A DNA stretch of 47,265 nucleotides from positions 1-47,265 of the forward strand of contig JAHLFB010000282.1 in the NCBI GenBank assembly GCA_018884025.1, in the 5' to 3' direction. The notes beneath the pieces are model-generated. The model did not search any database. It worked only from the letters and a program-made list of their open reading frames with translations, and was not told the origin of the DNA. The translations under genes and the position numbers were made by a program. The DNA comes from Candidatus Phocaeicola faecipullorum (GTDB taxonomy: Bacteria; Bacteroidota; Bacteroidia; Bacteroidales; Bacteroidaceae). Of this stretch, positions 17,677-45,358 are shown one piece after another; the stretch's first letter is position 1, and each line of letters begins with the position of its first letter.

Positions 17677-17677
17677 A

Positions 17678-19322: not shown

Positions 19323-19417
19323 AGTTTATAAGTTACCAGTTAACAAGTTGACGAGTTAACAAGATTTCCACTCGTATAGAAAACCTTGTTAACTTGTCAA
19401 CTGTAACCTTGTAAACT
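19323..19417. repeat. Long intergenic inverted repeat between sulfatase and PHP-like gene
   Basis: Left arm 19323-19363 and right arm 19385-19417 pair over about 33 bp, with one 8-nt extra unit in the left arm. Both arms are built from AGTTTATAAG/GTTAACAAG-type words. It fills almost the whole gap and ends in the sulfatase stop codon. In the polycistronic RNA it would form a long hairpin. Confidence 0.75.
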
Positions 19418-23139: not shown

Positions 23140-24417
23140 TTATAAATTCTTATATTCAATACCTTTCAGTTTCATATATCTCTGCAAAGCCTCAAGGTAA
23201 TAATAGTCCGCATAGTTAAGAGGAACATCTATTTCCGAACCGTTAGGAAGAGAACCTGTAGAATGCATCAATATAAATCCCTGATTTTCTCCTTTCTTTG
23301 CAAGATATGCATCAGATGACAAACTCTTAAGTATTTTCTCTGCATAATCGAAATATTTCTGTCCGTCTTCCACCATAGTGCTCATTTCAATCAGCGCAGA
23401 AGCTGTAACAGCGGCAGCAGAAGCATCACGAGGAGTTTCCTCTGTAACAGGAGCATCGTAATCCCAATAAGGAATAGCATCTTCTGTTTTCACTCTGTCC
23501 ATTATCATATCCGCCACATTAACAGCAAAGTCCAAATACTTCTTGTCACCTGTTTCACGATAGCATGATGTATATCCGTAAACAGCCCAAGCCTGACCGC
23601 GAGCCCATGAAGAATCATCATTCTTTCCTTGATGAGTCTGCTTACGTTCCACTGTTCCATCATTATTATAGCTTACCACGTGCCAGCAAGTATAGTCCGG
23701 ACGGAAATGATTAGCCATAGTCTTATCAGCATGCTTCAAGGCAATTTCCTTATACTTGGCATCACCAGTCATTTTGCTTACAGTAAACAGCAGGTCAAGA
23801 TTCATCATATTATCTATGATAACAGGAAAATTCCAAGTTCCAAAATCCCATGAGCGGATACATGAGATACTATCATTAAAACGTCCTATAAGATTATCTG
23901 CCGTCTCAACCATTACAGCATCTATAGTATCAGCATATGCCAGACGGCGTGCATTGCCATAACTGCAATTAATCATAAATCCCAAGTCGTGTGTACCTTT
24001 ATAATAACGTACCGGATTCAACAGATTAGTATATTTTGCAGCCTCAGTTTCCAACTCCTTATTGCCGGTAAGTTCGTAAGCATACCATAATGAACCCGGA
24101 TAGAAACCACTTGTCCAATCATAAACACTACATAATCTGCGTTTGCCATCCATCTCAGGAGTAGGCTTCTTACGCAATGAATCTACAAAAGTTGCCGTAT
24201 CTCTTTCCAACTGTCGGATCAGGAAATCCATATCATAACCTACATGGATTGAACGAGGTAACTTACCTGTACCATCTATTTCATGTGCAGTCAACAGAAG
24301 CTGTGAAGCCGATCTGTCCAAAGCAGTTTTTATCCACTCATCGTTTTCTGTTTTTTGTGTATTTACACAAGAAGCAAAAGCTATTGCAGTAGCAACTAAA
24401 AATAATTTCCCTTTCAT
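23140..24417 (-). CDS. Unsaturated glucuronyl hydrolase, GH88 family (lipoprotein)
   Basis: Hydrolyses the 4,5-unsaturated uronic acid left at the non-reducing end of oligosaccharides made by polysaccharide lyases. 425 residues with lipobox FASC (Cys 17). The (alpha/alpha)6-barrel shows the two conserved aspartates D144 (THDLGFM) and D202 (IIDNMMNLDLL), matching the catalytic pair of characterised enzymes. The tail LNYADYYYLEAL is typical. It serves both PL12 and PL8 products in principle. A 209-nt gap upstream holds a putative promoter and operator, so it probably starts a second transcript within the locus. Confidence 0.93.
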   Translation of the reverse strand: MKGKLFLVATAIAFASCVNTQKTENDEWIKTALDRSASQLLLTAHEIDGTGKLPRSIHVGYDMDFLIRQLERDTATFVDSLRKKPTPEMDGKRRLCSVYDWTSGFYPGSLWYAYELTGNKELETEAAKYTNLLNPVRYYKGTHDLGFMINCSYGNARRLAYADTIDAVMVETADNLIGRFNDSISCIRSWDFGTWNFPVIIDNMMNLDLLFTVSKMTGDAKYKEIALKHADKTMANHFRPDYTCWHVVSYNNDGTVERKQTHQGKNDDSSWARGQAWAVYGYTSCYRETGDKKYLDFAVNVADMIMDRVKTEDAIPYWDYDAPVTEETPRDASAAAVTASALIEMSTMVEDGQKYFDYAEKILKSLSSDAYLAKKGENQGFILMHSTGSLPNGSEIDVPLNYADYYYLEALQRYMKLKGIEYKNL

Positions 24418-24468: not shown

Positions 24469-24476
24469 CAAAGTTA
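24469..24476 (-). promoter_or_regulatory. Putative internal promoter of GH88-PL12-sulfatase genes
   Basis: TAACTTTG on the minus strand is a perfect TAnnTTTG, 52 nt before the GH88 start. No clear -33 box, as is common for activator-dependent promoters. The half-site pair at 24544-24576 lies upstream. Confidence 0.5.
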
Positions 24477-24543
24477 GCCAATATGGAGTAAAACATATCT
24501 CAATAATGTTTTTTTATATATAAGCTAAAGTCCTCAGAGTGCC

Positions 24544-24576
24544 AAATATGTGTAATTTTATATCAAAAATGTCTTA
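24544..24576. promoter_or_regulatory. Candidate operator, two half-sites 21 bp apart (GH88 promoter)
   Basis: AAATATGTGTAA (24544) and AAAAATGTCTTA (24565) resemble the half-sites at 39540/39561 and 40581/40602. The spacing is again 21 bp and the distance to the -7 element is 75 bp (74 in the other two). The second half-site is the weakest of the set (7 of 12 against AATTTTGTGTAA). Confidence 0.45.
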
Positions 24577-24626
24577 TTAATTATTCAACAAGCACAAAAA
24601 GCGGTTTAAAAGTCATGCAATATCAT

Positions 24627-27059
24627 TTAAAAAGTAATGCGTTTTATTTCTCCAGCTTTAAATTTTATAGATTTGTTTTCACCCATATAAGAAACATTTA
24701 CATTTTTATTATATAAACTATAGATATCTGCAAATTCCATTTTTCCATTTTTCCATGAAATATCAACAGTAAATCCGCCTCTGGCTTTCAATCCCTTAAC
24801 TGAACCATTCATCCATGTTTTTGGTAAAGCAGGAAGTAAATGAATGCCATTATGACTCTGCATCAACATTTCTGCGATACCTGCAGTAACACCAAAGTTT
24901 CCGTCAATCTGGAAAGGTAAGGCATTAAGCATATTTCTATAAAGTCCTCCACTATTTTCTGCTTTTTTGTTTGCGTCTATATAGTTCACCAAATTTGTCA
25001 AGGCTTCGTATGACTTAGCAGCATCATATAAACGTGCCCACAAAGATACTTTCCACGCCATACTCCAACCGGTTGTTTTGTTACCTCTATCTTCCAATGA
25101 CCTACGAGCAGCCTCGAATATATCTTCATTATCGGAAGTAATATCATATCCCGGATATAGACCAAATAAATGTGAAACATGTCGATGATTAGGCTCCTTT
25201 TCTATATATTCTTTATCCCATTCAAGTAACTGTCCTTTACTTCCTATCTGATAACCACGCATATCAGCAGCTTTTTCTTTAAGCATCAATCTGAATCTCT
25301 TATCAATACTTAAAACTTCAGAAGCCTTTATTGTAATATCAAACAGATTCCTGATAAGTGCCTGATCCATCGTACTACCTGGACAAACAGACGCTTCTAT
25401 TCCATTAGGCATAATATAAGCATTTTCAGGTGATGTGCTCACAGGAGTAACCCACTTACCATTGCTATCCTTAACAAGCCATTCAGAATAAAAAACTGAC
25501 GCTCCTTTAAGTATATCATAGTACTTACTTAAGAACTCCTTATCTTCCGTGTATAAATAATGCTCCCAAATATGGCTACACAACCAGGCACCTGAGATAT
25601 TCCAGAAAAACCAATAAACATAACCGTCTGAAGGATAGCCTTCCCTCCATATTGAAATGTTATGATGTATTGCCCATCCGTCAAGACCATACATATTACG
25701 TGCTATTTTTTTACCTTTCTCTGATATTTCCTCTATAAGATTAAACAAAGGCATATGACATTCTGAAAGATTTGTAACCTCTGCCGGCCAATAATTCATT
25801 TCAAGGTTTATATTCAATGTATAACCAGAGTTCCATGGTGGCAATCTTTTATCGTTCCATATACCCTGTAAGTTAAGTGGCTGTCCTCCAGGTCTTGATC
25901 CTGAAATCATAAGATAACGGCCAAATTGGAATAACTGAGCTAACAACATCTGGTCTTCTGTTTCATGAAATCTTCTCAAACGTTCATCGGTTGGCAAAGA
26001 TTTTTGTTCGTCTGATGCAGGCAGTTCCAGAGTAACACGATTAAACAATTCTGAATAGTCTGAGAGATGTTCATTATACAGTTCATTATAACTTCTGCCT
26101 TCATTCTTCTTCATTGCAGACAGTATCTGCTTATGAGGATCTTTCCCGGCTAATACAGGACTTTTATCAAAGCCACTGTAACTTGTTGCGGCATATACCA
26201 TAAATATTACCTCACTACATGCAGAGGCCCTCAAAGTATCATTCTTAATACAGACATTACCATTGTGACTCAACATGTCAAGACACGCCTCAAACAAGGT
26301 TCCTCTATCATCCAATCCATCACCATATATGATATGTTCTTTTCTGATGACATTTTCATTAGAATCAAAATACTCAGGATGTAAACGTTCTGTATTAAAA
26401 GCTCTCATGTGAGAAATATCCCTACGCTGAGCATGTGAAGGTGCCTGTCCTTTAATACAGATGTTATCACCATCTGAGATAGTCTTATAAGGATGTTCAG
26501 AAGATATATATGCATTAAAATCCAGAATAGGTTTTTCAGCAGACAGTTTTATTATAATGGCCTGAGCAGGATAAGATGCGAAAACCTCTCTTTTTACATG
26601 TACATTATTTATCTTATAGTCAGTCTTTACAACAGCCTTTGTCATATCAAGACTATGCACATAGTCTGTTATTTTCCCTTTATTCTTAAAATCAATATAC
26701 AAATCACCGCAAGGCTGATAAGCCTCATTCAGTCTTCCAATCCATTTGTTCTGAATGATACTGTCAGCCTCGTTGTTCTTTCCTGCAGCCAACAGGTCTT
26801 TTATATTATTTAAATCCGGCTGTACAAAGATATTAAATGACTGTTCCGGACCACCACTATAAAGGGTATTCTCATTAAACTGAATACGTTCGCAATCTGT
26901 ATATCCGAAAATCATTGCCCCCAAACGACCATTTCCTACAGGAAGAGCCTCTTCCCATGCATTTGCGGGAGTTTTATACCATAATGTAAGATTATTAGCC
27001 TCTATCTTAGACGAATAGAATGCAATAAATAAACATATTAATCGTATTGTAAATTTCAT
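24627..27059 (-). CDS. GH95 family glycosidase (alpha-L-fucosidase/galactosidase type)
   Basis: Inverting glycoside hydrolase of family GH95, which removes alpha-1,2-L-fucose or alpha-L-galactose. 810 residues with an apparent type I signal peptide (cleavage near EA). N-terminal beta domain ([24 protein letters not shown]), a linker, then the (alpha/alpha)6 barrel with the conserved N416/N418 ([10 protein letters not shown]), general-acid E545 (TSPENAY) and D719 (QIDGNFG). The usual HHNTDxWR segment reads HHNISIWR (465-472), which could change substrate choice. It starts 2 nt after PL8, so the two are translated as a pair. The AT-rich bases and absence from the typical heparan sulfate locus suggest an insertion into the PUL. 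Confidence 0.92.
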
Positions 27060-27061
27060 AA

Positions 27062-29983
27062 CTATTTCTTTAACACCAAATTATAATTTTCTCCACGTAT
27101 TGTAGAAATTATTACATAAGTTTCATTTCTCTGTTTATTGTAAGAAACATCAATATCTTTTTGACCACATTTTACATTAAACATTCCATTCAAAACAATT
27201 TTTGTATTGAAAGGCTTTTCTTCCTGTATCACATCCTCTTCTGTCAAAAGTCCCATATGTGCTTTTGATATTCTACGCATATCAGGTTCACAAATAGACA
27301 ATATTTTCTCATCTCCAACGCTTTCCAGAACATAAGCCAGTGGTATATTTACTTTTCTGACAATAAGATTATTATATTCCTTATCCTCATTAAACAATGC
27401 TGCACAAACAATATTTTTTTCCTTATCTTCAATAATATGTGCATCATTATTATTTGAAATAATATTTACCGGAGAATCTTTTGATATCAGTCGTCTGGCA
27501 AGCTTCTTATCTTTGTTCTTGATAATATAATATTCATAATCCGAAGATTTAGGAGCTTTCCCATGCTGTATATATGCACAGGTATGATTACCATTTTTAG
27601 CAAATTCAAGTTTTCCTTTCTTTAACGCATACAATAAAGACGCATCTTCCAAAATATAACCTTCACCGGATTTCTTCTTCCAAGCTTCATCAAAAGATTG
27701 GAATATTGTAGTTACAGTATTATGGTTATTATCATTGTTCTGTATATCAGAACCCATACAAAGTAAATAATCACCTATTGAGAAAACTGATTTATTTGCT
27801 CTGAATGAAGAATCATAAGTTATATCATGCATTCTAAATGAAAACATAGCAGCATCATTACCACCATCAACCCCGGCCAAGAAAGTTTCATCAGAGAAGT
27901 TTCTATGCCCGGAACTTCCTCCACCTCTATCTATGAGTTCATCATCAGAAAGGACCTTAACTGTAGTTCCAGATATAAAATTCCAATCAAACTCTTTTTC
28001 AACCGGCAGGAAAGATTTCTTTCTGTTTTTTAAATCGAAATACTCTAACTGACCATAAGCCAAATAACGTCCCTTTATATTTTCTTTATCAGAAGATTCA
28101 AAATCCCAAATATAACGGCTGAAACCTTTTACATTAAAATGCAAGTTCTCATCTTTCATAACCATTAACCCTGAATATGGCATAAACAAGTTACCCTCAA
28201 TATCTTCCTCCTCATCAATGTTTAAAGAAACCGCTTTTTCCATCAGCTCCACTTCACCGACAGATGCTGTATATGCAAGAGTTGAATTTACGGAACGCAC
28301 ATAATCAATAATATGACCTTTATTATCTGCATTATTCATTATCTTTTTTAATGCGGCTACCAGTTCCTTATCCGGTTCCTTATATGAAAAAGCTACATAA
28401 GCAAATGCAGGCAGTAATTCATGCAATACATCCTGTTTCAGAGGGAAACGACCGACCGTTCCTGCCGGTATTTCAAGATTAGCACTAAAGAAACGGAATG
28501 TCAGCAATCCACGTTTTAAGTTATTCAAAGTTTCTTCAGATAAAGCATAAGGTGTATCATGCAACAAGTAAGCAATCAAAGCACCTGCATATAAAGCATG
28601 AGGATAATATGCACTGTTGTAAGTACCACGATGATGATAACCGGAGAAATCCGCTTTTAACGTTCCATAGAACCCCGGAGCTATTCCCAAAGCATTTTCC
28701 ATATAAGCCTTATATGCTGTCAAGGCAATCTGACGTTTACATTTATCCTTAACAGACAAAGCATATATAAGTTTAGGTATAGCCAAGGCACGAAGATTAT
28801 CAGCAACTTCACCTGCGTATGTTGGAAGATCATAACATATTCCAAACATTGTAAACCAATATAATGAATTCAGTTCACGCTCATAGACTTCATCACTTAG
28901 TTGGTCTTTTACGAGGAAAAAAGAATGAAAATATCCGGAACTTCTTAACTTTTCAAAACATAAAGTTCCAAGTCCACTACCATCAGCCCATCCCTGATCA
29001 TTGAACCAATCATATATATATTTAATTTTCTCTAAACTCTCATTATTATTATTTTTTCTATAATCTAATGCTAATGGTAATAAAATCTTCTCATTTATTC
29101 CACGGAACTGATGTATCTTTTCACCATCTATTTTGTTAGGTGCACACATTGGATACAATGGATATCCAATAGGTCTGTTATCGGTTGAATAATTTATTTT
29201 TATACCATCCGACAATTTAACTCCTCCTGATATAAACTCAGTTTCAGATTTTTCTCTAATTATAGACAATGCTCCTTTGTCTTGAATATTTCCACCAAGA
29301 TACCAATCAGTCAATCTGTCTGATATTATTTCTATATCCTTATCAGTCGCAGAAATCATATTATCAACCTTTTCTTCCGCACTTCTATAAAGCATAAAAT
29401 TCGGTATGAGGCTGAAGTCTGTACGATTTACTGTATATTGTGCATCAGACATTTTCTGCCATGAAACATTAGGAGTAAATTCTAAATAATCCACATAAAC
29501 AGTTCCGCCATCTTTTGAGTTAGGAAAGATGATTTCGACATCCTTAACCTTTGTACCTTTTTTTATACCCAAATCAGCCTGAAACTGTTGCCAATAGCAC
29601 CTCCAACCGGTAAATCCAAGTTTAAACTCAGAACGGGCAAGCTCTTTGCCATCTATATCCTTAAATACAAAAACTGCTGGAGATTCTATTGATCTATCAC
29701 TATATACCCACGTAGCGATACCACCATTTTTTTTTCCTGAAGCAATGTCAATACCCAAAGGGGAAACCATTTCAAATTTTGCACCAGGTTGCCAATCAAT
29801 TCTTAATGATTGATTTCCAAGCTTATATTTTCCATTAGTAACAGAAAGTAACCCTTTGTCAATTCTCCAGTTATTTGGTACTTTATTATCCTCAAAAGAA
29901 TAAATCTGTGCTTTTATGTTAGAAACTGTTAGTATTCCACAAACAGTACTAAATAATATATATCTTAAAAAGTTCATTTTCAT
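27062..29983 (-). CDS. Chondroitin sulfate ABC lyase-like enzyme, PL8 family
   Basis: Lyase expected to cut chondroitin/dermatan sulfate or hyaluronan at the hexosamine-uronic acid bond. 973 residues with a type I signal (cleavage near KAQ). An N-terminal jelly-roll, carbohydrate-binding-like domain (about 27-170) starts [12 protein letters not shown]; a helical toroid holds the catalytic segment [15 protein letters not shown] (449-463), with H451 and a nearby Tyr as counterparts of His501/Tyr508 of Proteus chondroitinase ABC, and R512 in GRFP as counterpart of R560. Beta-sandwich domains follow. It pairs with GH95 (2 nt gap). It is separated from SusD by a structured 102-nt gap. PL8 genes belong to chondroitin loci elsewhere, so the presence here is notable. 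Confidence 0.9.
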
Positions 29984-29994
29984 AATAAATAAAA

Positions 29995-30052
29995 CTATCT
30001 TAAGCCTGCATCAGGCTTATTTAATTATAAGGCATGAGCAGACTTAAGATAG
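29995..30052 (-). other. Structured intergenic element between SusD and PL8
   Basis: CTATCTTAAG (29995-30004) and CTTAAGATAG (30043-30052) form a perfect 10-bp outer stem. Inside lies a competing perfect hairpin TAAGCCTG-CAT-CAGGCTTA (30001-30019), which shares four bases with the outer stem. On the minus-strand transcript the outer stem is followed by TTTTATTTATT. It may partly terminate or protect the RNA after SusD. Confidence 0.65.
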
Positions 30053-30085
30053 CGTTAACATAAAATTAAAATTATTTTCAGAAAC

Positions 30086-31801
30086 TTACCAACCAGGATT
30101 CTGATTGAACTTTGTCATCAAGTCTTTATCTCTCTGAGGTATAGGAAGAAGTTCATGCTTATTTTTCTTTGTATATTCATAACATATATAAAACTCTCCT
30201 CCATCACTATACCAGTTTACAATATCGTTAAAAGTATCCTGTATAGCATCAACATATATACCCCAACGTATAAGATCCTGACGACGATGCCCTTCAAATG
30301 CCAACTCATAAGCTCTTTCTATACGAACAGCATCTCTGAATCCGTTATAATCAAGCCCGGCCAAGTCACTTTTAGTATTTGGCATATCTACTGGCAATCC
30401 CATACCACGGCGACGAACCATGTTTATTGCCTCATAAGCTTCAGATGTAGGTCCTTGCTTCCATTCATTCATAGCTTCTGCATACAGTAACAATACATCA
30501 GCATAACGTAAAATATACCAGTTTATATTCGAAAGATTCGCATCCACAATATAATTGGCATCATTCACATATTTCTCCGTATCCCATTTTGCAGGAGTTA
30601 TTCCATCCATATATGCTTTCTTTACATCGTTTTTCGCATCATCCTCTAATGCCTCGTCCATTGTAGCCTTTGAACTTATAGGCAACTTCACTCCATTCTC
30701 ACCGGTTGTTTCATTCTTACCGTATTTATAATCTGCAATAGAAATCGAATATCTCCTGTCCATAGGAGTTCCATCATCATTCTTAGGCGATACATCTCTC
30801 CAGTCTCTTATAAAAGTAGGTATTATACGCCAGTTACCATCATTACGCACTCCTTTAATTCCACTTGCTGCCACTCCGTTCCATTTGCCGATACGTCCAC
30901 TTGGATCGGAAGCAGCCACTCCTGTTATAGCAGGTGAATAAAAGCTAACCTCTATCAAGCTCTCGCTATTATCCCATACACCATTACAAGTATTCTTCCA
31001 TAGCTGTTCATAATCATCAAGCAGTTTATGTTTTCCAGACTCCACTAATACTTTTGCAGTTTTTGCTGCTGCTTCCCACTTGCTGGTATCATTTATCGGA
31101 TATCCAGCCCATGTTGCATAAACTTTTGTGAGAAGTCCAATTGCAGAACCTTTTGAAAAACGGAAACTATTATCACTACGCAGATTGTCATCTACAGCAT
31201 AAGGAAGATTTTCTATCGCATACAGCAAATCCTGTTCTATAAACTTATATACATCAACCGGATCTGCTTGAGTATAAGTTGAAGGGTTTTGATAAGATTG
31301 CTGAGTTGAAGTTATTAAAGCTATATTTCCATACCATCTGACCAACTCAAAATAAAACAATGCTCGCAAAGCTCTCGCCTCTGCCATATATATTGTAGCC
31401 AAAGACTTATCTTTATCAGAAAATTTATTAAACCTTGCAGACAAAGTTTCTATAAAATCATTAGAATCATAAACAGCACCATACAAAGATTGCCATGTTG
31501 CTCTAACCTCATCTTGAGTACTTGTATAAGAATTGGAAGGAACCAAACGTTTTCCTTCGGTCGTATTACCTGTACATTTAGCAATATCACTTGGCAGAGT
31601 AAACAACAACGACAAGTGATACCTGTACATAGCTTCCTCTACAAAATTACGATAAACTCCATACAATACATTCTGCGCTTCACTTGCAGTATTCATATAA
31701 TTGTCTTTTTCCATCTCAACATAATTATTCTCATCAAGAGAACATGATGAAAAAGCAAAGAGACTGGCTAATAACCAAATACTATATTTCATATTTTTCA
31801 T
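30086..31801 (-). CDS. SusD/RagB family surface glycan-binding lipoprotein
   Basis: Outer-membrane lipoprotein that caps the SusC channel and helps bind the glycan. 571 residues, lipobox FSSC (Cys 20), followed by SLDENNY, whose acidic residues fit surface export. Helical TPR-like segments typical of SusD are visible: ARALRALFYFELVRWYGNIALI, the C-terminal RIERAYELAFEGHRRQDLIRWG and the end motif LLPIPQRDKDLMTKFNQNPGW. It starts 6 nt after SusC, as usual for this pair. Confidence 0.96.
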   Translation of the reverse strand: MKNMKYSIWLLASLFAFSSCSLDENNYVEMEKDNYMNTASEAQNVLYGVYRNFVEEAMYRYHLSLLFTLPSDIAKCTGNTTEGKRLVPSNSYTSTQDEVRATWQSLYGAVYDSNDFIETLSARFNKFSDKDKSLATIYMAEARALRALFYFELVRWYGNIALITSTQQSYQNPSTYTQADPVDVYKFIEQDLLYAIENLPYAVDDNLRSDNSFRFSKGSAIGLLTKVYATWAGYPINDTSKWEAAAKTAKVLVESGKHKLLDDYEQLWKNTCNGVWDNSESLIEVSFYSPAITGVAASDPSGRIGKWNGVAASGIKGVRNDGNWRIIPTFIRDWRDVSPKNDDGTPMDRRYSISIADYKYGKNETTGENGVKLPISSKATMDEALEDDAKNDVKKAYMDGITPAKWDTEKYVNDANYIVDANLSNINWYILRYADVLLLYAEAMNEWKQGPTSEAYEAINMVRRRGMGLPVDMPNTKSDLAGLDYNGFRDAVRIERAYELAFEGHRRQDLIRWGIYVDAIQDTFNDIVNWYSDGGEFYICYEYTKKNKHELLPIPQRDKDLMTKFNQNPGW

Positions 31802-31807
31802 TTTAAA

Positions 31808-34800
31808 TTAAAATTGTACTTCTACTCCTACTGTAAATACACGACTCTTAGGATATGCTCCCCAATCAAAACCAGGCATCAATGGGCTGCTCTTCATATT
31901 CACTTCAGGGTCGTAACCACTATATTTAGTAAACGTAAGCAGATTCTGAGCAGTACCATATACCCTCAAACGTTCTATAAATGCCTTTCTTGTCCATTTA
32001 CTTGGTAATGTATATCCCAATGTAACATTCTTCAGACGAATGAAAGAACCATCCTCAATAAAACGAGAATATAATTCATATTTAACATAACCTTTTGCTG
32101 ATGGAACACGGTTTGAAGCATGTGTTGGAGTCCATCTGTCCGCAACTTCTATAAGCTGGTTAGTTCGTTCGTCCTGCGACTGAGTCTGGAACATACGTGT
32201 AGCGTTATAAACATCATTTCCATAATTAAACTGAAATAGAAAACTGAAATCAATTCCTTTATATCTCAAAGTATTCGTAATACCGCCATACCAGTCTGGA
32301 AGTCCGTTACCTATGACAGTTCTATCATTAGTAGTAATCTTTCCATCACCATCAATATCTTTATATTTAACCATACCTGGCTCTGTTGTACGTCCGGCAT
32401 GTTCACTCATATCTGGTACACCAGGTTTCAATACAAGACCATTAGGAGTAGAATTAAAGTCTGAATACTGATAAACACCGTCAAACTCATATCCATACAT
32501 TAAACCTAATGACTCACCAACCATTGCAATATAATCGTATCCTGTAAAGTTTGTATTAAAACCAGTTCTTGAATACATTACTGTAGCACCGTCCTGTAAA
32601 CTCTTCAATGTATTTCTTATAAACGAAATATTAAAGTCTGTAGTCCAGCTGAAATCTTTTCTTTGGAAATTGACTGTATTAAGATTTAGTTCAACACCTT
32701 TATTCTGAATTTTACCTATATTCTGCCATTGTGAACTGAATCCAGTAACATACGCCAAGTCCTGAGCCATCAGCAAATCTTTTGTATTCTTTAAGAAGAA
32801 ATCTGCAGTAATGTTTATTCTGTTATCAAATAGACCTAAATCAATGCCAACATTGGCAGTAGAAGACCCTTCCCATTTAAGATCAGGATTAGCCAATTGT
32901 TTAGGCGACAAAGAGGTTATCAGTTTATTTCCTATTCCATATTTCATCTCTGTATAAAGGTCCATAGACAAATAGTTACTGATACGATCATTACCTACAA
33001 CACCCCATCCTAAACGTAACTTCAAATTAGAAATAGGTTTTATTTCTTTCATAAATTTTTCTTCAGATACACGCCATGCAGCAGAGAACGAAGGGAAATA
33101 TCCCCACTTATGCTTTTCTGAAAATACGCTTGATGCATCTGCTCGCACTGTAGCTGTCAATAAATAGCGTTCCTTGAAATTATAAACGCCACGAGCAAAG
33201 AAAGAAAGCATTTTTTTATCGCTTCTGGATGTACTTACAGAGCTTGGTGTAGCACCCAAACCTAAGTTATCATTACCTAAATTATCAAAAGGAAAGTCTT
33301 TTGACTGACCATATAACAATTCAGAACCTCTGTACGAATATTCATGTCCAAGCACGAAATTCAATGAATGTTTCTTCTTGAATTTTGCATCGTAAGTCAA
33401 AGTATTACTACTTGACCAACGTACATCCTTTTGCATCTGTGTAGAACCATACGCACCTCCACTACGGTATGCCTGGCTTGATTCTGCTCCATAGAATGTA
33501 TCATTCCTATAATTTGTTGTATTATATGTACCGGCAGCACGGAATGTCAAACCTTTAATAATCTTAACACTCAACGCCATATTAGCCCCCCAATACTCAG
33601 ATTCTCTGTTATTATCAACAGCTTCAGACTGTTTTATAGGATTAACGACTGAATATGTTCCTTCCTCCAATTCAATAGGGTCAATAGCTTCATTCAACAA
33701 GTCATAATCAGACGTATCAAGTCCACCGGTAGGTCTTGCCCGCAACAAACTTGACAGAACACTTAATGTACCACTTGTTCCACTTGTACCAATACCTGTT
33801 TTTACTGAATTTGAGTAGTTAATTGTCGCATCAAGTTTTATTGATTTATTAATATCTTGGACCAAACGTAACTTTCCTGTATTCTTTTTATATCCACTGT
33901 TTGTAAAAATACCATTTTCATCAAAATGAGAGAAAGACGCAGAATATTTAGTTGACTTTGTTCCACCACTTATACTAAAATCGTGATTCTGTGACCATGT
34001 AGGTCTGAATGCAGCATCCTGCCAATCAACCCCAGGTACAGACAAATAATCATCCATAGTCTGGTATATATAGTTCTCGCCTGTGTCAGGATCAATTCCT
34101 TCCTTAAAATATGTGTTGGCATATTTTGTTGGGTTTATTTCAAGCTGCAATTTTACGAACTCATAAGGAGACAACAGATCTAAAGTCTTGGAAATAGTTC
34201 TATAACTTGCAGAGCCATTATATGAGATAACAGGCTTACCTTCTTTACCTGATTTTGTCGTAACAAGGATTACACCATTCGCCGCACGGGCTCCATAAAT
34301 GGCTGAAGCTGACGCATCCTTCAATACATCAATACTTTCTATATCATTATTGGCAAGATAATCAATGTTATCAACTTCAAAACCATCTACGATATACAAT
34401 GGAGAAGCATCACCATTCACGGTACCTACACCACGGATTTTAATATCAAAACCTGAACCCGGAGTACCATCCGACTGTGTAATCTGAACTCCGGCTATCT
34501 GTCCTCCCAATGCTTCAACGACAGAACTTGTCTTGAAGTTTTCTATGGCTTTCGAGGATACAGAAGATACAGAACCTGTAAGGTCACTTTTCTTCATTGC
34601 TCCATAACCAACCACTACTACCTCATCAAGCTGTGCATAATCTGGAACCATTTTTATTTTCAGGGTCTGTTCACCACGAACTTTTACTTCCTGATCTTTA
34701 TATCCTATATATTTTACAATCAAAGTAGATTTTGGAGTTACTTTCAACTCAAAATTACCATCAAAATCCGTAGCAGCTCCTGTATTTGAATTTTTAACCT

Positions 34801-34957
34801 GAATAGTCGCACCTATAAGTGGCTGGTCATTTTCATCAATGACCACGCCCTTTATAGAAATCTTCTGTGCAAATGACGAAACAGTGCACAATAAGGCAAA
34901 AAGAACAAACATAAATCTTTTGCCCGATATTTTTACTATATATTTATAATTATTCAT
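31808..34957 (-). CDS. SusC/RagA family TonB-dependent outer-membrane transporter
   Basis: TonB-dependent importer of oligosaccharides, 1049 residues. Signal peptide (cleavage near SFAQ), N-terminal carboxypeptidase-regulatory-like domain (ISIKGVVIDENDQPLIGATIQV), a TonB-box-like DEVVVVGYG, a plug domain (SDLTGSVSSV; IRGVGTVNGDASPLYIVDGF; DASASAIYGARAANGVILVTTK) and a 22-strand barrel ending in Phe (TVGVEVQF). It forms the import complex with the SusD gene 6 nt downstream. It lies 17 nt after the SGBP. Confidence 0.97.
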   Translation of the reverse strand: MNNYKYIVKISGKRFMFVLFALLCTVSSFAQKISIKGVVIDENDQPLIGATIQVKNSNTGAATDFDGNFELKVTPKSTLIVKYIGYKDQEVKVRGEQTLKIKMVPDYAQLDEVVVVGYGAMKKSDLTGSVSSVSSKAIENFKTSSVVEALGGQIAGVQITQSDGTPGSGFDIKIRGVGTVNGDASPLYIVDGFEVDNIDYLANNDIESIDVLKDASASAIYGARAANGVILVTTKSGKEGKPVISYNGSASYRTISKTLDLLSPYEFVKLQLEINPTKYANTYFKEGIDPDTGENYIYQTMDDYLSVPGVDWQDAAFRPTWSQNHDFSISGGTKSTKYSASFSHFDENGIFTNSGYKKNTGKLRLVQDINKSIKLDATINYSNSVKTGIGTSGTSGTLSVLSSLLRARPTGGLDTSDYDLLNEAIDPIELEEGTYSVVNPIKQSEAVDNNRESEYWGANMALSVKIIKGLTFRAAGTYNTTNYRNDTFYGAESSQAYRSGGAYGSTQMQKDVRWSSSNTLTYDAKFKKKHSLNFVLGHEYSYRGSELLYGQSKDFPFDNLGNDNLGLGATPSSVSTSRSDKKMLSFFARGVYNFKERYLLTATVRADASSVFSEKHKWGYFPSFSAAWRVSEEKFMKEIKPISNLKLRLGWGVVGNDRISNYLSMDLYTEMKYGIGNKLITSLSPKQLANPDLKWEGSSTANVGIDLGLFDNRINITADFFLKNTKDLLMAQDLAYVTGFSSQWQNIGKIQNKGVELNLNTVNFQRKDFSWTTDFNISFIRNTLKSLQDGATVMYSRTGFNTNFTGYDYIAMVGESLGLMYGYEFDGVYQYSDFNSTPNGLVLKPGVPDMSEHAGRTTEPGMVKYKDIDGDGKITTNDRTVIGNGLPDWYGGITNTLRYKGIDFSFLFQFNYGNDVYNATRMFQTQSQDERTNQLIEVADRWTPTHASNRVPSAKGYVKYELYSRFIEDGSFIRLKNVTLGYTLPSKWTRKAFIERLRVYGTAQNLLTFTKYSGYDPEVNMKSSPLMPGFDWGAYPKSRVFTVGVEVQF

Positions 34958-34974
34958 TTTCTTATTTTTTAAGA

Positions 34975-37158
34975 TTAAAATCTTGTATCAAACCATATTG
35001 CGAGAGGGAAAATACCCTTATCCCCTGAAACATTTTGAAGGTCAGTAGTGCTACCGTTTGTAACAAATGTCATCTGTCCTATCATAACTCCATTTGCATA
35101 TCCGTAATTATTCAACCACTTATTGGCATTGATTTTCACTGCAAGATTATTGGTTGCATCAACATAACCTAAAGGTATATTCAATTTTCCAATATTATCA
35201 TAATAAGACATTGGAGCACGTGCTCCAGGATTATTACCTTTGCCAATAGCTTCAAAATAAGCCTTCCAAACACTTTCCATAAACGAACTACCTACACTTG
35301 GCTGCCCCTTCAAATGTTCTTCCGGACCATTCAAGTTATAATAATCAAATGTACGGCGATAATCCATCAGGAACTTAGACATATCCGTAACACCTATTAT
35401 TTCCGGAGTTGCAGAAACACCTCCCGTACGAGGATTTACCTGCATAACAAACGGAGTATATCTAACAATTACACCTTCGTTCATGGAAACTGAACAATCA
35501 AAGAATATAGGAGTCTTTACAGTCACTTCTTCAGATGTTCCCTTTCCTGCAGTAGTATTTATTACAACCATGATAACTTTACCATTTTTCCAACCTTTTC
35601 CTGCCCTTACGGTAAACTTACCTGTATTCTTATCAATACTTACAGCACTTGGAGTAGAAGATGATTCTGTATCAATAGTATATTCCACATTTGTAGCATT
35701 ATCTCCCAAGTCCGTATCAACAACATCAAATGAGAATGATTCAAACTCTGCTTTTGTTGTAGCACGGAACTGGCTTGCATAGTCTTTAGCAGGTTCAAGA
35801 CCTAAATTATTTCCCCAACTTACGTATGTAAAATAGTTAGGATTTTCTTTAACTGTAAGACTAAACGTTGCAGACAACTCACTCTTAATATTTTTAGCCA
35901 ATACAGTAACTGTATAGGTTCCAAGAGGTATAGAATTTCCTTTCTTGGCAGAAATTACACCGGTTAATGGGTCTATCTGTAAATCAGACAATTTTGAATC
36001 CAGATTTACAAAAGAATACATAACCTCACCTCCATCACAGACAGACGGTGCAATATCAAATGCTGTACTCTGTGATACCTCTGCATTATCATAAGCAAAT
36101 TGTGTAATTGGTTCTATAAAATCAATTATAGTAAATGTATATACATTGTCAAACTCAGCTGTACCATATTGGTTAGTGACGCTAACTGAGATATTACATA
36201 CATCATCTATTTCCAAAGAACTTTCTTTTGCTAAAGAAATGACACCTGTTGTAGGATTAATGCTAACTTGTGCACCTTCCAAAGATACAGACTTAATAGC
36301 ATAATTCAATCCTTCAAGTGAGCCTGACAATACCGGAGCAACAGACTCAAATGCATATCCCTTCTCTATACGCACAGAATTTGGCGTATATGTCAATCCT
36401 AAAGGACGAGAAGTTACATTTATCGTCAAAGCATTCTCAAATATGCCTTCTTCTGACTCTTCGCCTACTATCGCAGTTGTCAACTTTAAGTTCAAGACAT
36501 ATTTACCCGGCTGTATATTTGACTCTCCCCTTACTATTGATATTTCTCCTGTAGAGGCATTGATATTAAAGAAATCACAATCTTCAACCTTTACTCCTTC
36601 CTTTGTTACACTTGCAATAAGATATTTTGATATTGACACATGGTTTCCATCAGTTGTAACCTGGGCAGTAGGTAATTCAGCTTCGCTGTCTTCTGACACT
36701 ACATCAGCATAATCCACAACCAGTTCAGCAGGTTCAACAGTTATTCCGTCAGGTACAGGTTTCATCATATTAATACTTATAATATCACTAAATGTATAAT
36801 GATGGCCATTCGAAGTACAAGATATACTAATAGTATATAATCCTACCGGCAACTCTCCTGTATTCTGGATTTCAACAGTACCATTTTCTTTTATAGTAAA
36901 ACATTCTGTTTCATAAGGTTCACCATCAAGTTTTACTCCAACAATAGTAAATCCGGAAGGTTGACCACCGATATAAGTAGGAGCATCCAAAGTAAAATTC
37001 ATAGATGGTCCGATATCGGTAACTCCTGGATAATAAATCATAAATTCTGTCGAGTCTGTTGTCTCAGGATCTTCACAAGAAGCATTGGCGAAACAAAAAC
37101 AGACTACTGCAAGGATTTGAAAAATCCTAAACATTCCATTTGTTAAATTTTGTCTCAT
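34975..37158 (-). CDS. Surface glycan-binding lipoprotein with Ig-like repeats
   Basis: 727 residues, lipobox ASC with the lipidated Cys at residue 28, then acidic EDPETTDS (surface export). The body has about four Ig-like/cadherin-like repeats, each with a recurring INxxTGxIS-type turn (FNINASTGEISIVRG; INPTTGVISLAKE; IDPLTGVISAKKG; IDKNTGKFTVRAG). The C-terminal about 170 residues form a separate domain (FDYYNLNGPEEHLKG, ending FPLAIWFDTRF). The place between surface PL12 and SusC matches the SGBP BT4661 of the B. thetaiotaomicron heparan sulfate locus (recalled). It should hold the polysaccharide at the cell surface. Confidence 0.82.
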   Translation of the reverse strand: MRQNLTNGMFRIFQILAVVCFCFANASCEDPETTDSTEFMIYYPGVTDIGPSMNFTLDAPTYIGGQPSGFTIVGVKLDGEPYETECFTIKENGTVEIQNTGELPVGLYTISISCTSNGHHYTFSDIISINMMKPVPDGITVEPAELVVDYADVVSEDSEAELPTAQVTTDGNHVSISKYLIASVTKEGVKVEDCDFFNINASTGEISIVRGESNIQPGKYVLNLKLTTAIVGEESEEGIFENALTINVTSRPLGLTYTPNSVRIEKGYAFESVAPVLSGSLEGLNYAIKSVSLEGAQVSINPTTGVISLAKESSLEIDDVCNISVSVTNQYGTAEFDNVYTFTIIDFIEPITQFAYDNAEVSQSTAFDIAPSVCDGGEVMYSFVNLDSKLSDLQIDPLTGVISAKKGNSIPLGTYTVTVLAKNIKSELSATFSLTVKENPNYFTYVSWGNNLGLEPAKDYASQFRATTKAEFESFSFDVVDTDLGDNATNVEYTIDTESSSTPSAVSIDKNTGKFTVRAGKGWKNGKVIMVVINTTAGKGTSEEVTVKTPIFFDCSVSMNEGVIVRYTPFVMQVNPRTGGVSATPEIIGVTDMSKFLMDYRRTFDYYNLNGPEEHLKGQPSVGSSFMESVWKAYFEAIGKGNNPGARAPMSYYDNIGKLNIPLGYVDATNNLAVKINANKWLNNYGYANGVMIGQMTFVTNGSTTDLQNVSGDKGIFPLAIWFDTRF

Positions 37159-37168
37159 TGTTTTTCAA

Positions 37169-39304
37169 TTATAATTTATATTTTAAGTTATATTCTTTAT
37201 CGTTAATCTTTACCATCACATCAACTCCGTCAGCATGGAAAGCTCCAGCAGTTCCACCTTCATTGTCCTTGAAACTTGCATCGAAAGTAAGTTTACTCAA
37301 CTCATCAACCTTATCAAAAGGATAAATAATAGTGATAAAACGGGCAGCACCATCTGCAGGTTTAGTGATTGAAAGCTGATAACTTGCACGAACACCATTA
37401 ACTTCTCCTATTGCGTTAGAGACAGTGGTTTCAGAAGAATTAAAGGCTAATCCATCATTCGTTTCGGCAAAAGTGCGTATAATCATATTATTGCTGTCAA
37501 AAGTAGTATATGCTCCATATTCTCTATTTTCTTTATTTAAATATTTGCTTTTTTTAGTGGCATCAGCATCAGACAGAAGATGGAAATTCAATTCTACCTT
37601 ATCAGAATTACCGTTTCCGTACCCCTCATCCACCAAGACAAAGAACTTGTTCTCTACAAAGAACACCGAACGACGATGCGTAAGATTCTGATATGACTTA
37701 TTTTCAACAACAATTAATTGTGTATTACCATTTACAACCTCATTCTTTAGCATTCCTCCATTCATAAACCCATTAGCAATAGTTTTACCATTGCAAGTCA
37801 TAGTATTGTGATTCTTCGTAGCAAGATATTGGGCACGTTCTGCATTTGATTCACTCGTTCCACCATAAGAGAAGACACCTGCATCAGGGAAAAAGTTTCT
37901 CTCATTATGATACAGGCCAAAAGTACCATTATCAGGCTGACAGTGCCATTTATTATTTACATTTTTATTATTCTTAAGCACCATCATTGTAGAAGATTTA
38001 TCCCATCCGTTTCTTAAGATATAATAACCTGCATCATCATACATCTTGAAATTATATGATGGTTTTGTACCTGACTTACCTTCGTAAGCAAACCAAAGCA
38101 ATTCTGCATCTTCCGGGAACATTTCTACATACTTTTTCAGGTTCTTGGTAAGTACACTTTTTGTCCAAGAAACAGAACGTGTATCATTAAAATTATCAAG
38201 AGTATAATTAGGATAAATTATATCCATGACAAAACGTGCAGAATTTTTCAACTGTTCAATATAATTTTCCGGGAAAATAGAAAGTTTGTTGTTTTGAGAA
38301 GCCAATTGATACGTACTGTAAAAGCCGTCAACAACACCAATATGATAGCTCGGATCCAATTCATTCTGAACACCATCATTCAAGAACTGATCTTTCACCT
38401 GCTGTCCCATAACTGTAGAACCTTCTGTCAACCATTCAGAAGCGTTCTTAAATTCAGGCATCAATATACCGGCTGTAGTTACTACACGATACATGGCAGC
38501 CTCAATATTACCACCATCTGTAAAATAATTATTACGTACACATTCCACATGATCTGAAAAGGCAAGTAAAAATTCAGATAAGAACTCTGGTGTAAAATTC
38601 ACAGACTGAATAAAATATTGTAACAGATTCATCTGATCATCCAATCGTTCTGTAGGCTGCAAACCATACCATTCTACCTGTTCTTTTGAAACCTTACCTT
38701 CCGGACATGGATAAGTTTTTAACCAATCCAAATAGGTTTCCTTCCAAGACTCAAAATACTTCTCATCTTTTGTTACCCTATATGCTTTACCTAACGCCGG
38801 AAACCACTGATGACGATGCTTCTGCGAGAAGAATTCCTGATAATCCATTCCTTCAGGCGCATAAGACCAATCTATTTTACCGTCTTTTTCAAATAAGTAA
38901 TATACAGCATTCTCACCTGTACCTGACTCCTGGAAATTACGAATATAAAAACGATGTTCCAATGCCTGATCTGCGATTCTCTGATCTGTCGCTGTAATTG
39001 ATGGATTTATCAGATTAATACGAGTGTTCACAATATTAGAACGATTACGATAATACTCTAATAATTCATAACAAGCATAATAGTCCTTACCAGCCTCATG
39101 ATAAGCCTTCACTTTCTCAAGTCCGGGATAATCAAGATTTAATTTGTCAAATAAATCCTGTTTTACAACTTCATTAGGTTTATCTTCCGGTAGAATTTCC
39201 CAATTAATATCCCCACTACCATCCAATAATTTCTCTGTGTTATCACTACAAGAAATCAGTGCAAATGCACCAATAAAGCAATAAAAAAGTTTTTTCATAT
39301 ACAT
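37169..39304 (-). CDS. Heparin/heparan sulfate lyase, PL12 family (surface lipoprotein)
   Basis: 711 residues with lipobox LISC (Cys 19) followed by SDNTEK, fitting surface display. After a short linker comes NLDYPGLEKVKAYH, the shared PL12 start. Catalytic-site counterparts are the Asn in DGGNIEAAMYR, LDPSYHIGV, and the His in KWHCQPDNGTFGL; a heparinase II/III domain and beta-sandwich follow. It is probably the endo-acting surface enzyme, as BT4662 is in the similar B. thetaiotaomicron locus (recalled). First intact gene of the PUL transcript, 10 nt before the SGBP gene. A second ATG two codons later (39298) is also possible. Confidence 0.9.
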   Translation of the reverse strand: MYMKKLFYCFIGAFALISCSDNTEKLLDGSGDINWEILPEDKPNEVVKQDLFDKLNLDYPGLEKVKAYHEAGKDYYACYELLEYYRNRSNIVNTRINLINPSITATDQRIADQALEHRFYIRNFQESGTGENAVYYLFEKDGKIDWSYAPEGMDYQEFFSQKHRHQWFPALGKAYRVTKDEKYFESWKETYLDWLKTYPCPEGKVSKEQVEWYGLQPTERLDDQMNLLQYFIQSVNFTPEFLSEFLLAFSDHVECVRNNYFTDGGNIEAAMYRVVTTAGILMPEFKNASEWLTEGSTVMGQQVKDQFLNDGVQNELDPSYHIGVVDGFYSTYQLASQNNKLSIFPENYIEQLKNSARFVMDIIYPNYTLDNFNDTRSVSWTKSVLTKNLKKYVEMFPEDAELLWFAYEGKSGTKPSYNFKMYDDAGYYILRNGWDKSSTMMVLKNNKNVNNKWHCQPDNGTFGLYHNERNFFPDAGVFSYGGTSESNAERAQYLATKNHNTMTCNGKTIANGFMNGGMLKNEVVNGNTQLIVVENKSYQNLTHRRSVFFVENKFFVLVDEGYGNGNSDKVELNFHLLSDADATKKSKYLNKENREYGAYTTFDSNNMIIRTFAETNDGLAFNSSETTVSNAIGEVNGVRASYQLSITKPADGAARFITIIYPFDKVDELSKLTFDASFKDNEGGTAGAFHADGVDVMVKINDKEYNLKYKL

Positions 39305-39465
39305 TTTTTCTTAATGGTTAATAAAGTTATACCCACCTATTATAATAAACTAAACACAATTCTAAATACTGGACTCCCAATCCTTTCAAATTCATTTCGC
39401 TAAGTTAATTACATAAATATTAAAAATTAAGTTTTCTTATTTCTATTTTCATTAATCACATATTG

Positions 39466-39473
39466 CAAAGTTG
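39466..39473 (-). promoter_or_regulatory. Putative -7 element of the main PUL transcript
   Basis: CAACTTTG on the minus strand differs from TAnnTTTG in one position. The predicted leader is about 155 nt. Its distance of 74 bp to the first half-site is the same as at the degraded PL12 promoter. Confidence 0.4.
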
Positions 39474-39539
39474 TAGAAAATTAAAGACTATTAAGGTTTA
39501 ACTTGTGCCAGTTAATTACAAGTCTGTCCAATATATTTC

Positions 39540-39572
39540 AATATTGTACAAAATCATTTTAATTTTGTGTAA
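39540..39572. promoter_or_regulatory. Candidate operator, two half-sites 21 bp apart (main PUL promoter)
   Basis: AATATTGTACAA (39540-39551) and AATTTTGTGTAA (39561-39572) are direct repeats with 21-bp spacing, two helical turns, as expected for AraC-type DNA-binding domains. The whole segment is nearly identical to 40581-40613. Confidence 0.6.
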
Positions 39573-39654
39573 CATAAATTCCAAGCATACAAATAGTCAT
39601 AAAATCAAGTTTATTTCAGCGGATGAGAGAAGCTGTAAGTTTCCCTTTGTCAAT

Positions 39655-40487
39655 TTAATCCGTCACTCCTGTTATATCACCTTCCAAACTTTTCTTCACG
39701 CTTCCGATACTTATCTTTACACCTATTTTCCCTTTGGAATATCCACCATCTGTAAATTTTGCATCTATTTCAGGATATTCATTTACAGAAGTTACAGGAT
39801 ATATCACAGTGATATATCTCACCGGAGTGGTATCTGTTTTCTTCACATCGTACGATATGGATGTACGCTGTGTCTTTTCATTATATTTCACGGATTGCCA
39901 TCCCTCTTTCTCATTCATAGTGATTGCATGGTCCGAAAAGCATTGTAACTTTACATTGCTATTACCTCTATAATTTGTATATATTGCATTCTCTTCTTTT
40001 ACAAGGCTGACATCCGATGGTGTCTCACACATCTGAAAGTTAAGGTTAATCGTACCCTTTGCATATCCTACGGCCTCGTCAACGAGTACAAAATATTTCT
40101 TATCAACGAAAAATACTGTACGTATGTATTTGAGATTTGAGTAATGCTGTTTTTTCAACTGACTCTATGCAAAGCAATAGTTTTCACATTCAGCAGTAGT
40201 TCCGTTTTTCCGACTCATCGTTTTTTATCCAGTCAAGGTATTGGAAAATCCATTCTTTAGCATACCTTTAGATTTCCAAGCCCTGGATACTCTAAATTCA
40301 GGAGTGAGAGAACGTCCTTGTATTCAGCATTTTCATCATCCGTTCCATCATCAGGAGTATCATCTTCCCCTGCCCCATCCGGTATCTCGGAAAGGATATT
40401 ATTTTCATTGTCACCGGGTATAACAGTTTCATTCTGACGGGAACATGATATAATAAGGAATAATATAAGCAGATAGCCTTTTTTCAT
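39655..40487 (-). pseudogene. Degraded PL12 lyase lipoprotein (two internal deletions)
   Basis: Three separated remains of one PL12 gene in order. (a) From ATG 40487, a lipoprotein signal with lipobox ISC, an acidic linker, and NLEYPGLGNLK, then a stop. (b) After a jump of about 110 codons in another frame, AKEWIFQYLDWIKND, matching KEWVFQYMDWIKK of the intact PL12. (c) After a much larger jump, NLKYIRTVFFVDKKYFVLVDEAVG and the C-terminal beta-sandwich to 39655. The whole catalytic toroid, the HCQPDNGTF motif and most of the lyase domain are missing, so no activity is expected. The signal peptide and upstream operator are intact. Confidence 0.88.
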
Positions 40488-40580
40488 AATAAAGTCTGTT
40501 TTGTTACAAAGGTCGCTCATTTTATCATTAAACAATTCCCGGATTGTTTTAGTTCATTATTATAACAGACTTAATATTTA

Positions 40581-40613
40581 AATTTTGTGCAAAATAGTTT
40601 TAATTTTGTGCAA
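40581..40613. promoter_or_regulatory. Candidate operator, two half-sites 21 bp apart (degraded PL12 promoter)
   Basis: AATTTTGTGCAA occurs exactly twice, at 40581 and 40602. The first copy is 74 bp from a -7-like element (40507), the same distance as at the main PUL promoter. Confidence 0.6.
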
Positions 40614-40693
40614 TGCAAAACATGAAGTATCATTATGTTTGATTTTTGACCGGAGAATGGACAAATACAGCCAAATTCCGGGAATAAAAAAAC

Positions 40694-40744
40694 GACGAAG
40701 CATTTCAACACGAATGACGAAGCATTTTAGTTCAAACGACGAAG
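40694..40744. repeat. Three-unit GACGAAG repeat, 22-bp period
   Basis: GACGAAG starts at 40694, 40716 and 40738, exactly 22 bp apart, with AGCATTT or AGAGTTT after each unit. The same period is seen at 7281-7309 with the opposite orientation relative to the neighbouring operon. Confidence 0.7.
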
Positions 40745-40784
40745 AGTTTATTTTTAAGGTTTAAAGGGCCATGAATCTATTAAT

Positions 40785-43112: not shown

Positions 43113-43135
43113 GTTTTTTTTATTTACTGAATTAA

Positions 43136-45328: not shown

Positions 45329-45358
45329 ATTAAAATATTGTTTGTGATGATTCTCATA

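Follow-up and report, generated by a model that had tools for sequence, protein, structure and literature searches.

Background

To our knowledge, the activation of polysaccharide utilization loci (PULs) by membrane-bound hybrid sensors is largely uncharted at the promoter level. Here we consider three direct repeats that stand before genes of a heparan-sulfate type PUL in Candidatus Phocaeicola faecipullorum, on contig JAHLFB010000282.1 of assembly GCA_018884025.1 (C247 below). The whole contig, 47,265 nucleotides, is the stretch analysed and is called the window; the assembly is fragmented, with a completeness of 86% and a contamination of 5.0%. The three repeats are very probably operators of the hybrid two-component system (HTCS) regulator HTCS_Hep, arranged as tandem arrays at the PUL promoters and served in trans from another contig of the same genome, C13.

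The closest described systems are the Bacteroides operators of HTCS_Hep itself. HTCS motifs are reported, in the part of Ravcheev et al. (2013) available to us, to be direct repeats with an average period of 21 bp, and sites for HTCS_Hep (BT4663) were predicted there in 2013 upstream of BT4662, the BT4658-52 operon and BT4675 (PMC3878776). The present locus has the same 21-bp repeat, with sites before operons of the BT4662 and BT4658 types, so that two of its three positions match the published BT4662 and BT4658-52 operons. As far as the two can be compared by description rather than by letters, the published motif has two half-sites and the arrays considered here four; further differences are that the regulator is unlinked here and that one operator precedes a pseudogene. 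The operator is thus of a known kind, and the extra half-sites locked to the promoter are new: in the literature searched, with most subscription journals outside it, HTCS_Hep is nowhere credited with a third or fourth half-site, and the portions of text examined mention neither the position of HTCS motifs relative to the promoter nor a fixed distance to the -7 element.

Two 12-bp sites and a 9-bp spacer make up the HTCS_Rgu-1 motif (BT4111/BT4124), the 12 + 9 layout initially annotated for the window, although it belongs to another regulator, has other letters and serves a rhamnogalacturonan PUL (PMC3878776, same part). Binding of BT4663-RR to the bt4662 promoter depends on phosphorylation, the apparent KD being 1.7 uM for the phosphorylated form vs >22 uM, and in the accessible text the Hill coefficient of 2 for strong binding was set by the authors (PMC11253607); being imposed, it does not tell how many dimers bind.

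Free AraC-type proteins of Proteobacteria, which act at sigma-70 promoters, offer a further comparison, although HTCS are membrane-bound hybrid sensors. MelR has four sites at the melAB promoter. At E. coli melAB and at MtlR/XylS-type operators, as here, the direct repeats for AraC-type activators stand in tandem, and the upstream half-site is the stronger one (PMC4514859, in the excerpt consulted).

Results and discussion

Three predicted operators in the window

The initial annotation had described the repeats as AraC/HTCS-type operators made of 12-bp half-sites, and on re-reading of the letters all their coordinates and the 21-bp spacing are correct. The half-sites at 40581/40602 are identical (AATTTTGTGCAA in both), those at 39540/39561 read AATATTGTACAA and AATTTTGTGTAA, and the pair at 24544/24565 (AAATATGTGTAA / AAAAATGTCTTA), already called weaker, is indeed weak, at 17.3 bits in the model described below. 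The distances of 74, 74 and 75 bp to a CAAAG hold because CAAAG starts at 40507, 39466 and 24469. The period of 21 bp stands, and the half-site is better described as 18 bp long with 3 bp between units, the unit being TTnnACAAAATTgAtAtc in the direction of transcription. The reading of CAAAG as a minus-strand -7 element stands in full only at 24469, where the complete TAnnTTTG consensus of Bacteroides housekeeping promoters (PMC7366714, from the part seen) is present (TAACTTTG); at 40507 and 39466 the TA is missing (GACCTTTG, CAACTTTG). The predicted elements are listed below, with the distal pair designated O1-O2, the proximal half-sites O3 and O4, and offsets counted from the operator start.

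40575..40613, minus strand: distal pair O1 (40613-40596) and O2 (40592-40575) before the degraded PL12; 33.3 bits, top of the window
40534..40551, minus strand: proximal half-site O4, TAAAACAATCC..., of the degraded PL12 promoter; ACA core at offset 66
40507..40514, minus strand: -7 element GACCTTTG of the degraded PL12 promoter; TTTG at offset 103
39534..39572, minus strand: distal pair O1 (39572-39555) and O2 (39551-39534) before the intact PL12a; 32.9 bits
39514..39531, minus strand: proximal half-site O3, TTGGACAGACTT, of the PL12a promoter; offset 41, 7.9 bits
39493..39510, minus strand: proximal half-site O4, TGGCACAAGTTA, of the PL12a promoter; offset 62
39466..39473, minus strand: -7 element CAACTTTG of the PL12a promoter; TTTG at offset 103
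24538..24576, minus strand: distal pair O1 (24576-24559) and O2 (24555-24538) before GH88; weak, 17.3 bits
24496..24513, minus strand: proximal half-site O4, AAAAACATTATT, of the GH88 promoter; offset 63, ACA core at 67
24469..24476, minus strand: -7 element TAACTTTG (full TAnnTTTG) of the GH88 promoter; TTTG at offset 104

The model was derived from relatives only. Genome contigs were searched with a profile built from 21 aligned PL12a proteins, which gave 70 loci, 45 of them having PL12a followed by SusC; dropping near-identical upstream regions left a training set of 42, with the window excluded. Expectation maximisation for a repeated 12-mer at periods 14 to 30, with no preset period, reached a log-likelihood of 379.9 at 21 bp, against 212.0 at 20 bp and at most 192.8 at other periods. 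An 18-bp half-site model with period 21 scored above 17 bits in 36 of the 42 training regions, and 34 of these 36 sites start 132-165 bp before the PL12 start codon. Applied to both strands of the window, to which it was blind, the model ranked the three noted sites first to third (33.3, 32.9 and 17.3 bits), the next match having 5.1 bits. GH88 promoters were a class not used in training, and 25 of the 43 loci having GH88 carry a site above 14 bits there.

Simulated windows (150) contained a single match of at least 17.3 bits, with a score of 28.2, and ~682 kb of real DNA from the window's assembly and two related genomes gave a rate somewhat above simulation, its matches of at least 17.3 bits outside the window being the site beside HTCS_Hep (27.2 bits in the own genome, 27.8 in G001) and one other (19.8 bits, L122). 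That other locus (L122, G001:C14) has operator-like matches at positions 3849 (19.8 bits) and 2675 (17.0 bits), and at neither does TTTG stand where it usually does. A search of the window's whole assembly for the exact 33-mer, allowing 3 mismatches at most, found the two strong sites only, and a degenerate consensus with the same tolerance found 4 matches, the reversed-pattern control being 0 in both searches. These 4 comprise the two strong window sites (0 and 1 mismatch) and matches on C43 and C81 (3 mismatches each), which we rejected for having neither TTTG at offset 103/104 nor ACA at 66/67. The consensus misses the weak 24544 site and the C13 site, and hence is not a full list of the regulon.

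An abundance of such pairs upstream of unrelated genes, on which the initial annotation would have fallen, was thus not found in genome-wide pattern searches, and a chance origin is rejected on score, rank and genome-wide search. The AraC/HTCS-type operator remains the best description, since 21 bp was far ahead in the spacing scan and matches the published structure of HTCS motifs (PMC3878776). Candidate operators stand upstream of the operon with SusC and SusD, and we assign them with high confidence to the HTCS_Hep type.

Proximal half-sites locked to the -7 element

The distance from operator to promoter was measured in 65 non-redundant sites, all from relatives rather than the window and chosen regardless of a -7 element. 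TTTG lies at offset 103 in 31 and at 104 in 21 of them (52/65 together), and the 74-75 bp originally noted is this conserved distance. In a set of 66 sites (above 20 bits or from the window, whose three sites are included), 29 have the TTTG of TAnnTTTG at 103 and 25 have it at 104. A half-site scan between the strong pair and the -7 element revealed a second place, O4, at offset 62 where TTTG is at 103 and at offset 63 where it is at 104; its ACA core is present in 33/38 and 23/26, respectively, of the non-redundant sites preselected for a -7 element. ACA at 66 accompanies TTTG at 103 in 28 of the 65 sites and ACA at 67 accompanies TTTG at 104 in 18, with 0 crossed pairs; in 46/46 sites having both, the O4 core thus keeps a distance of 37 bp from the -7 TTTG downstream of it and moves when the TTTG moves. 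The absence of crossed pairs places the 1-bp play between O2 and O3/O4 and ties O4 to the -7 element.

A weaker slot, O3, is found at offset 41/42, 21 bp above O4. Mean half-site scores in the two TTTG-offset groups are -3.6 and -2.7 bits for O4 and -7.0 and -11.2 bits for O3; when the spacers of each group were shuffled 500 times, the means came to no more than -14.9 and -14.1 bits. O4 is in register at 3/3 window sites, none of them used for training. Counted from TTTG the four cores lie at -100/-79/-58/-37 or, where O2 and O3 are 1 bp closer to each other, at -99/-78/-58/-37, a spacing that puts them about two helical turns apart, on one face. The pair of half-sites first noted is therefore real, and the promoter-proximal half-sites in phase with it, O4 strongly and O3 weakly, had been overlooked. 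As a conserved architecture, the four half-sites are proposed with high confidence for O4 and moderate confidence for O3.

A candidate regulator on another contig

A protein search of the own genome for HTCS regulators gave 49 matches, none of them on the window contig. One of them, at C13:14613-18653, is 83% identical (1346 residues) to its counterpart in the related locus L030, where that HTCS stands immediately before the PUL, and 88/91 residues of the DNA-binding part are identical. It has the full HTCS set of domains (propeller, Y_Y_Y, HisKA, HATPase, receiver and AraC-type) and a SHIP motif, which has been tied to phosphorylation control (PMC11253607, in the part available). By these similarities, which would place it in the BT4663 orthologue group, an orthologous HTCS_Hep appears to be present in the same genome.

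The regulator gene adjoins the PUL in L030 and not here, and adjacency is not a required feature of the HTCS_Hep regulon. The L028 genome likewise has an 82%-identical HTCS at C4:1125-5156 and a PUL that starts near 52.8 kb, ~48 kb away, on what is taken to be the same 105,857-base contig. Separation in two genomes makes a binning error unlikely. In the own genome, a DDE transposase gene (L093:13310-14467, on C13) adjoins HTCS_Hep on the side where relatives carry the PUL. Between HTCS_Hep and a heparinase-II-type gene lies a further operator preceding the latter (C13:19158; 27.2 bits, TTTG at 104). The initial annotation had inferred a regulon with two transcription starts: two starts would fit the intact operons only, and the predicted promoters number three, the one with the strongest operator before a pseudogene, with at least one further target on C13.

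Weighing of alternative explanations

Several observations weigh against tandem HTCS_Hep arrays. Of the 65 sites, 13 have no TTTG at 103/104 and 6 have the -7 element without the ACA core. O3 is weak, with an ACA core in 16/38 and 1/26 of the two offset groups. Six of the 42 regions (L021, L022, L025, L027, L046 and L057) score at most 0.2 bits, and two of the three window -7 elements, both at strong sites, are without TA. The C13:19158 operator, right beside HTCS_Hep, has no O4 core, so that O4 is not essential at every target. A second HTCS, on C180 and 50% identical to HTCS_Hep, could share the sites. Finally, -37 is the commonest position of ACA in 195 promoters below the operator cut-off (20/195; position median 2%), and -58 the next commonest. 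GH88 promoters of the same PUL, with faded O1/O2, account for six of the 20, and five of the 20 have ACA at -58 as well as -37; the promoters other than these six would be compatible with a promoter or HTCS element of a more general kind.

Possible, if on balance doubtful, is an ordinary single-pair operator, with HTCS_Hep on O1-O2 only and the ACA at -37 serving either as a promoter element, such as the -33 region, or as a site for some other protein, such as the global regulator Cur/BT4338. The published HTCS_Hep motif, with two sites only (PMC3878776, as excerpted), agrees with this, as do the ACA of the sub-threshold promoters, the C13 operator without an O4 core and the locking of O4 to the -7 element, which a promoter element would also show. 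Against it, ACA occurs at the O4 place in 11/90 control promoters of the same loci and in 56/64 operator promoters, the latter having been chosen for TTTG at 102-105, and O4 scores far better under the half-site model of the operator than shuffles do and keeps the 21-bp phase of O1/O2. The -33 promoter motif is TTTG, which is not what is conserved there. Cur/BT4338 was rejected as the binder of the proximal element: its palindrome, as quoted in the accessible part of PMC11501099, is not recurrent, the best match being 7-11/14 in all 65 sites. Separately, positions 24482-24497, between O4 and the -7 element of the GH88 promoter, match that palindrome at 12/14.

It is unlikely that the sites belong to the C180 HTCS or to the AraC-family protein encoded in the window at 13327-14160. 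The DNA-binding part of the former shares 63/91 residues with that of the C13 HTCS, and a 15.0-bit site lies nearby (L089), yet this site is without TTTG at the right offset, and in L030, one of the two nearest genomes, it is the close counterpart of the C13 protein that adjoins the PUL. The latter gene has its location in the window in its favour, but its neighbours are efflux and tRNA modification genes rather than the PUL. That the repeats are merely inherited and functionless is most improbable, for although the closest relative aligns over the PL12a promoter at 88.8% (L028), the window GH88 promoter aligns no better than shuffles with four named GH88/downstream references and yet has O1/O2, O4 and the -7 element in register, and the 21-bp period persists across the 42 regions after removal of near-identical rows.

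Position of repeats in other HTCS families and a proposed mechanism

For another HTCS of the genome (C13:4123-8343), SusC relatives were compared from 10/201 genomes. A pair of the TTTGTCCACC type with period 21 lies at -54 to -59 from TTTG in 8/10 loci, and the two misses had no TAnnTTTG in reach. This family resembles HTCS_Hep in having a 21-bp pair before a SusC-type gene at a fixed distance to TAnnTTTG; its pair, in contrast, occupies the place of the weak O3/O4, the strong pair of HTCS_Hep being ~45 bp further upstream. In a second set, 18 loci with SusC relatives of L103, most of them at 39-48% identity, a proximal pair with period 21-22 was found in 2/18 (L148, L149); 7/18 had no TAnnTTTG in reach, or one only without a pair, and the set speaks neither for nor against proximal placement. 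The 195 sub-threshold promoters contain a strong 21-bp repeat in 22 cases, against 1-10 for periods 17-20 and 22-25; 12 of these are proximal, 4 distal (2 of which look like the pair of a divergent neighbour viewed from its opposite side) and 6 elsewhere. Under the same cut 20 of 72 operator promoters pass, 16 with a distal repeat, 1 proximal and 3 elsewhere. An orientation flip between HTCS families, suggested by reading TTTTGTCC/GGACAAAA, was dropped.

Since ordinary HTCS pairs are mostly proximal and those of HTCS_Hep mostly distal, HTCS_Hep would seem to keep degenerate proximal sites together with a strong pair two repeats upstream, a proximal decay that is suggested by position. On the tandem-array explanation, HTCS_Hep would sense heparan-sulfate fragments and phosphorylate its own receiver domain, and a dimer would occupy the strong O1-O2 pair. 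This dimer would aid a second one onto the weak O3-O4; there, beside the -33 region, the second dimer would contact RNA polymerase and start transcription. Two dimers with cooperative loading we regard as an evenly balanced proposition, and the polymerase contact and activation as presumptive. Somewhat more tentatively, HTCS_Hep promoters across Bacteroidales may use two tandem dimers, the proximal pair having decayed so as to be filled only with the help of an added upstream pair.

The PUL and its degraded PL12

Gene calls and Pfam place the heparan-sulfate type PUL on the minus strand of the window. Its equivalence, gene by gene, to BT numbers is presumed, partly from Pfam (SGBP_BT4661-like).

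39655..40487, minus strand: degraded PL12 (heparinase II/III type) pseudogene, remnant of a gene intact as L028:7682-9760
37169..39304, minus strand: PL12a heparinase II/III-type lyase, first gene of its operon
34975-37158, minus strand: BT4661-like surface glycan-binding protein (SGBP; Pfam SGBP_BT4661-like), PL12a operon
31808-34957, minus strand: SusC, PL12a operon
30086-31801, minus strand: SusD, PL12a operon
27062-29983, minus strand: PL8, PL12a operon
24627-27059, minus strand: GH95, PL12a operon
23140..24417, minus strand: GH88 of unsaturated glucuronyl hydrolase type, first gene of the second operon
21041-23047, minus strand: PL12b, GH88 operon
19416-21038, minus strand: sulfatase, GH88 operon
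17678-19306, minus strand: DUF3604 protein, GH88 operon
16720-17745, minus strand: ROK kinase-type protein, GH88 operon
15414-16685, minus strand: MFS transporter, GH88 operon
13327-14160: AraC-family protein, beside efflux and tRNA modification genes, outside the PUL

Heparan-sulfate PULs with a PL8 lyase and GH95 also occur in L019 and L179 (Bacteroides faecis), with the gene order of the window, PL12a-SGBP-SusC-SusD-PL8-GH95-GH88-PL12b-sulfatase-DUF3604.

The degraded PL12, whose promoter region lies 1 kb upstream of PL12a on the same strand, keeps a remnant of the start, a middle scrap and the C-terminal part; two internal stretches are gone, and the three pieces align with L028:7682-9760 at 88.8%, 78.9% and 91.6%. 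Its operator, the best in the window at 33.3 bits, compares with 19.8 bits for that of the intact relative in L028. The region 39409-40613 matches L028 at 88.8-91.6% in two long aligned pieces, the old start codon of L028 aligning at 39409-39411, and the genes on the flank, GH88 and PL12b, show 93% and 99% (partial) identity to L028. Of the genes between, PL12a, SGBP, SusC and SusD are closer to Phocaeicola faecicola L018 (69, 74, 87 and 80% identical) than to L028 (47, 33, 60 and 51%); identity to L018 is 66% for PL8 and 68% for GH95. There is thus an apparent cassette swap of 24627-39304, in which a native operator seems to have been kept ahead of foreign genes.

Beyond the pseudogene, a repeat (GACGAAGCATTT, 22-bp period) at 40691-40760 is 92% like L028:4494-4570, and a similar repeat stands before a 518-aa gene in L028. 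Three large minus-strand proteins, none with a Pfam match, are encoded at 40881-47218; L028:327-1832 encodes a 69% relative of the first.

Conclusions

An HTCS that lies apart from its PUL with the operators kept implies that the neighbours of a PUL are not a safe guide to its regulator. If the two-dimer array holds, heparan sulfate would elicit a steeper and more signal-gated response than other HTCS give, and the array would account for the rigidity of the promoter geometry (103/104 bp). The conserved ruler, with cores at -37, -58, -79 and -100 from the -7 TTTG, makes the action of HTCS at promoters directly testable by mutation, and should help in finding the promoters of other HTCS regulons and in setting design rules for glycan-responsive promoters.

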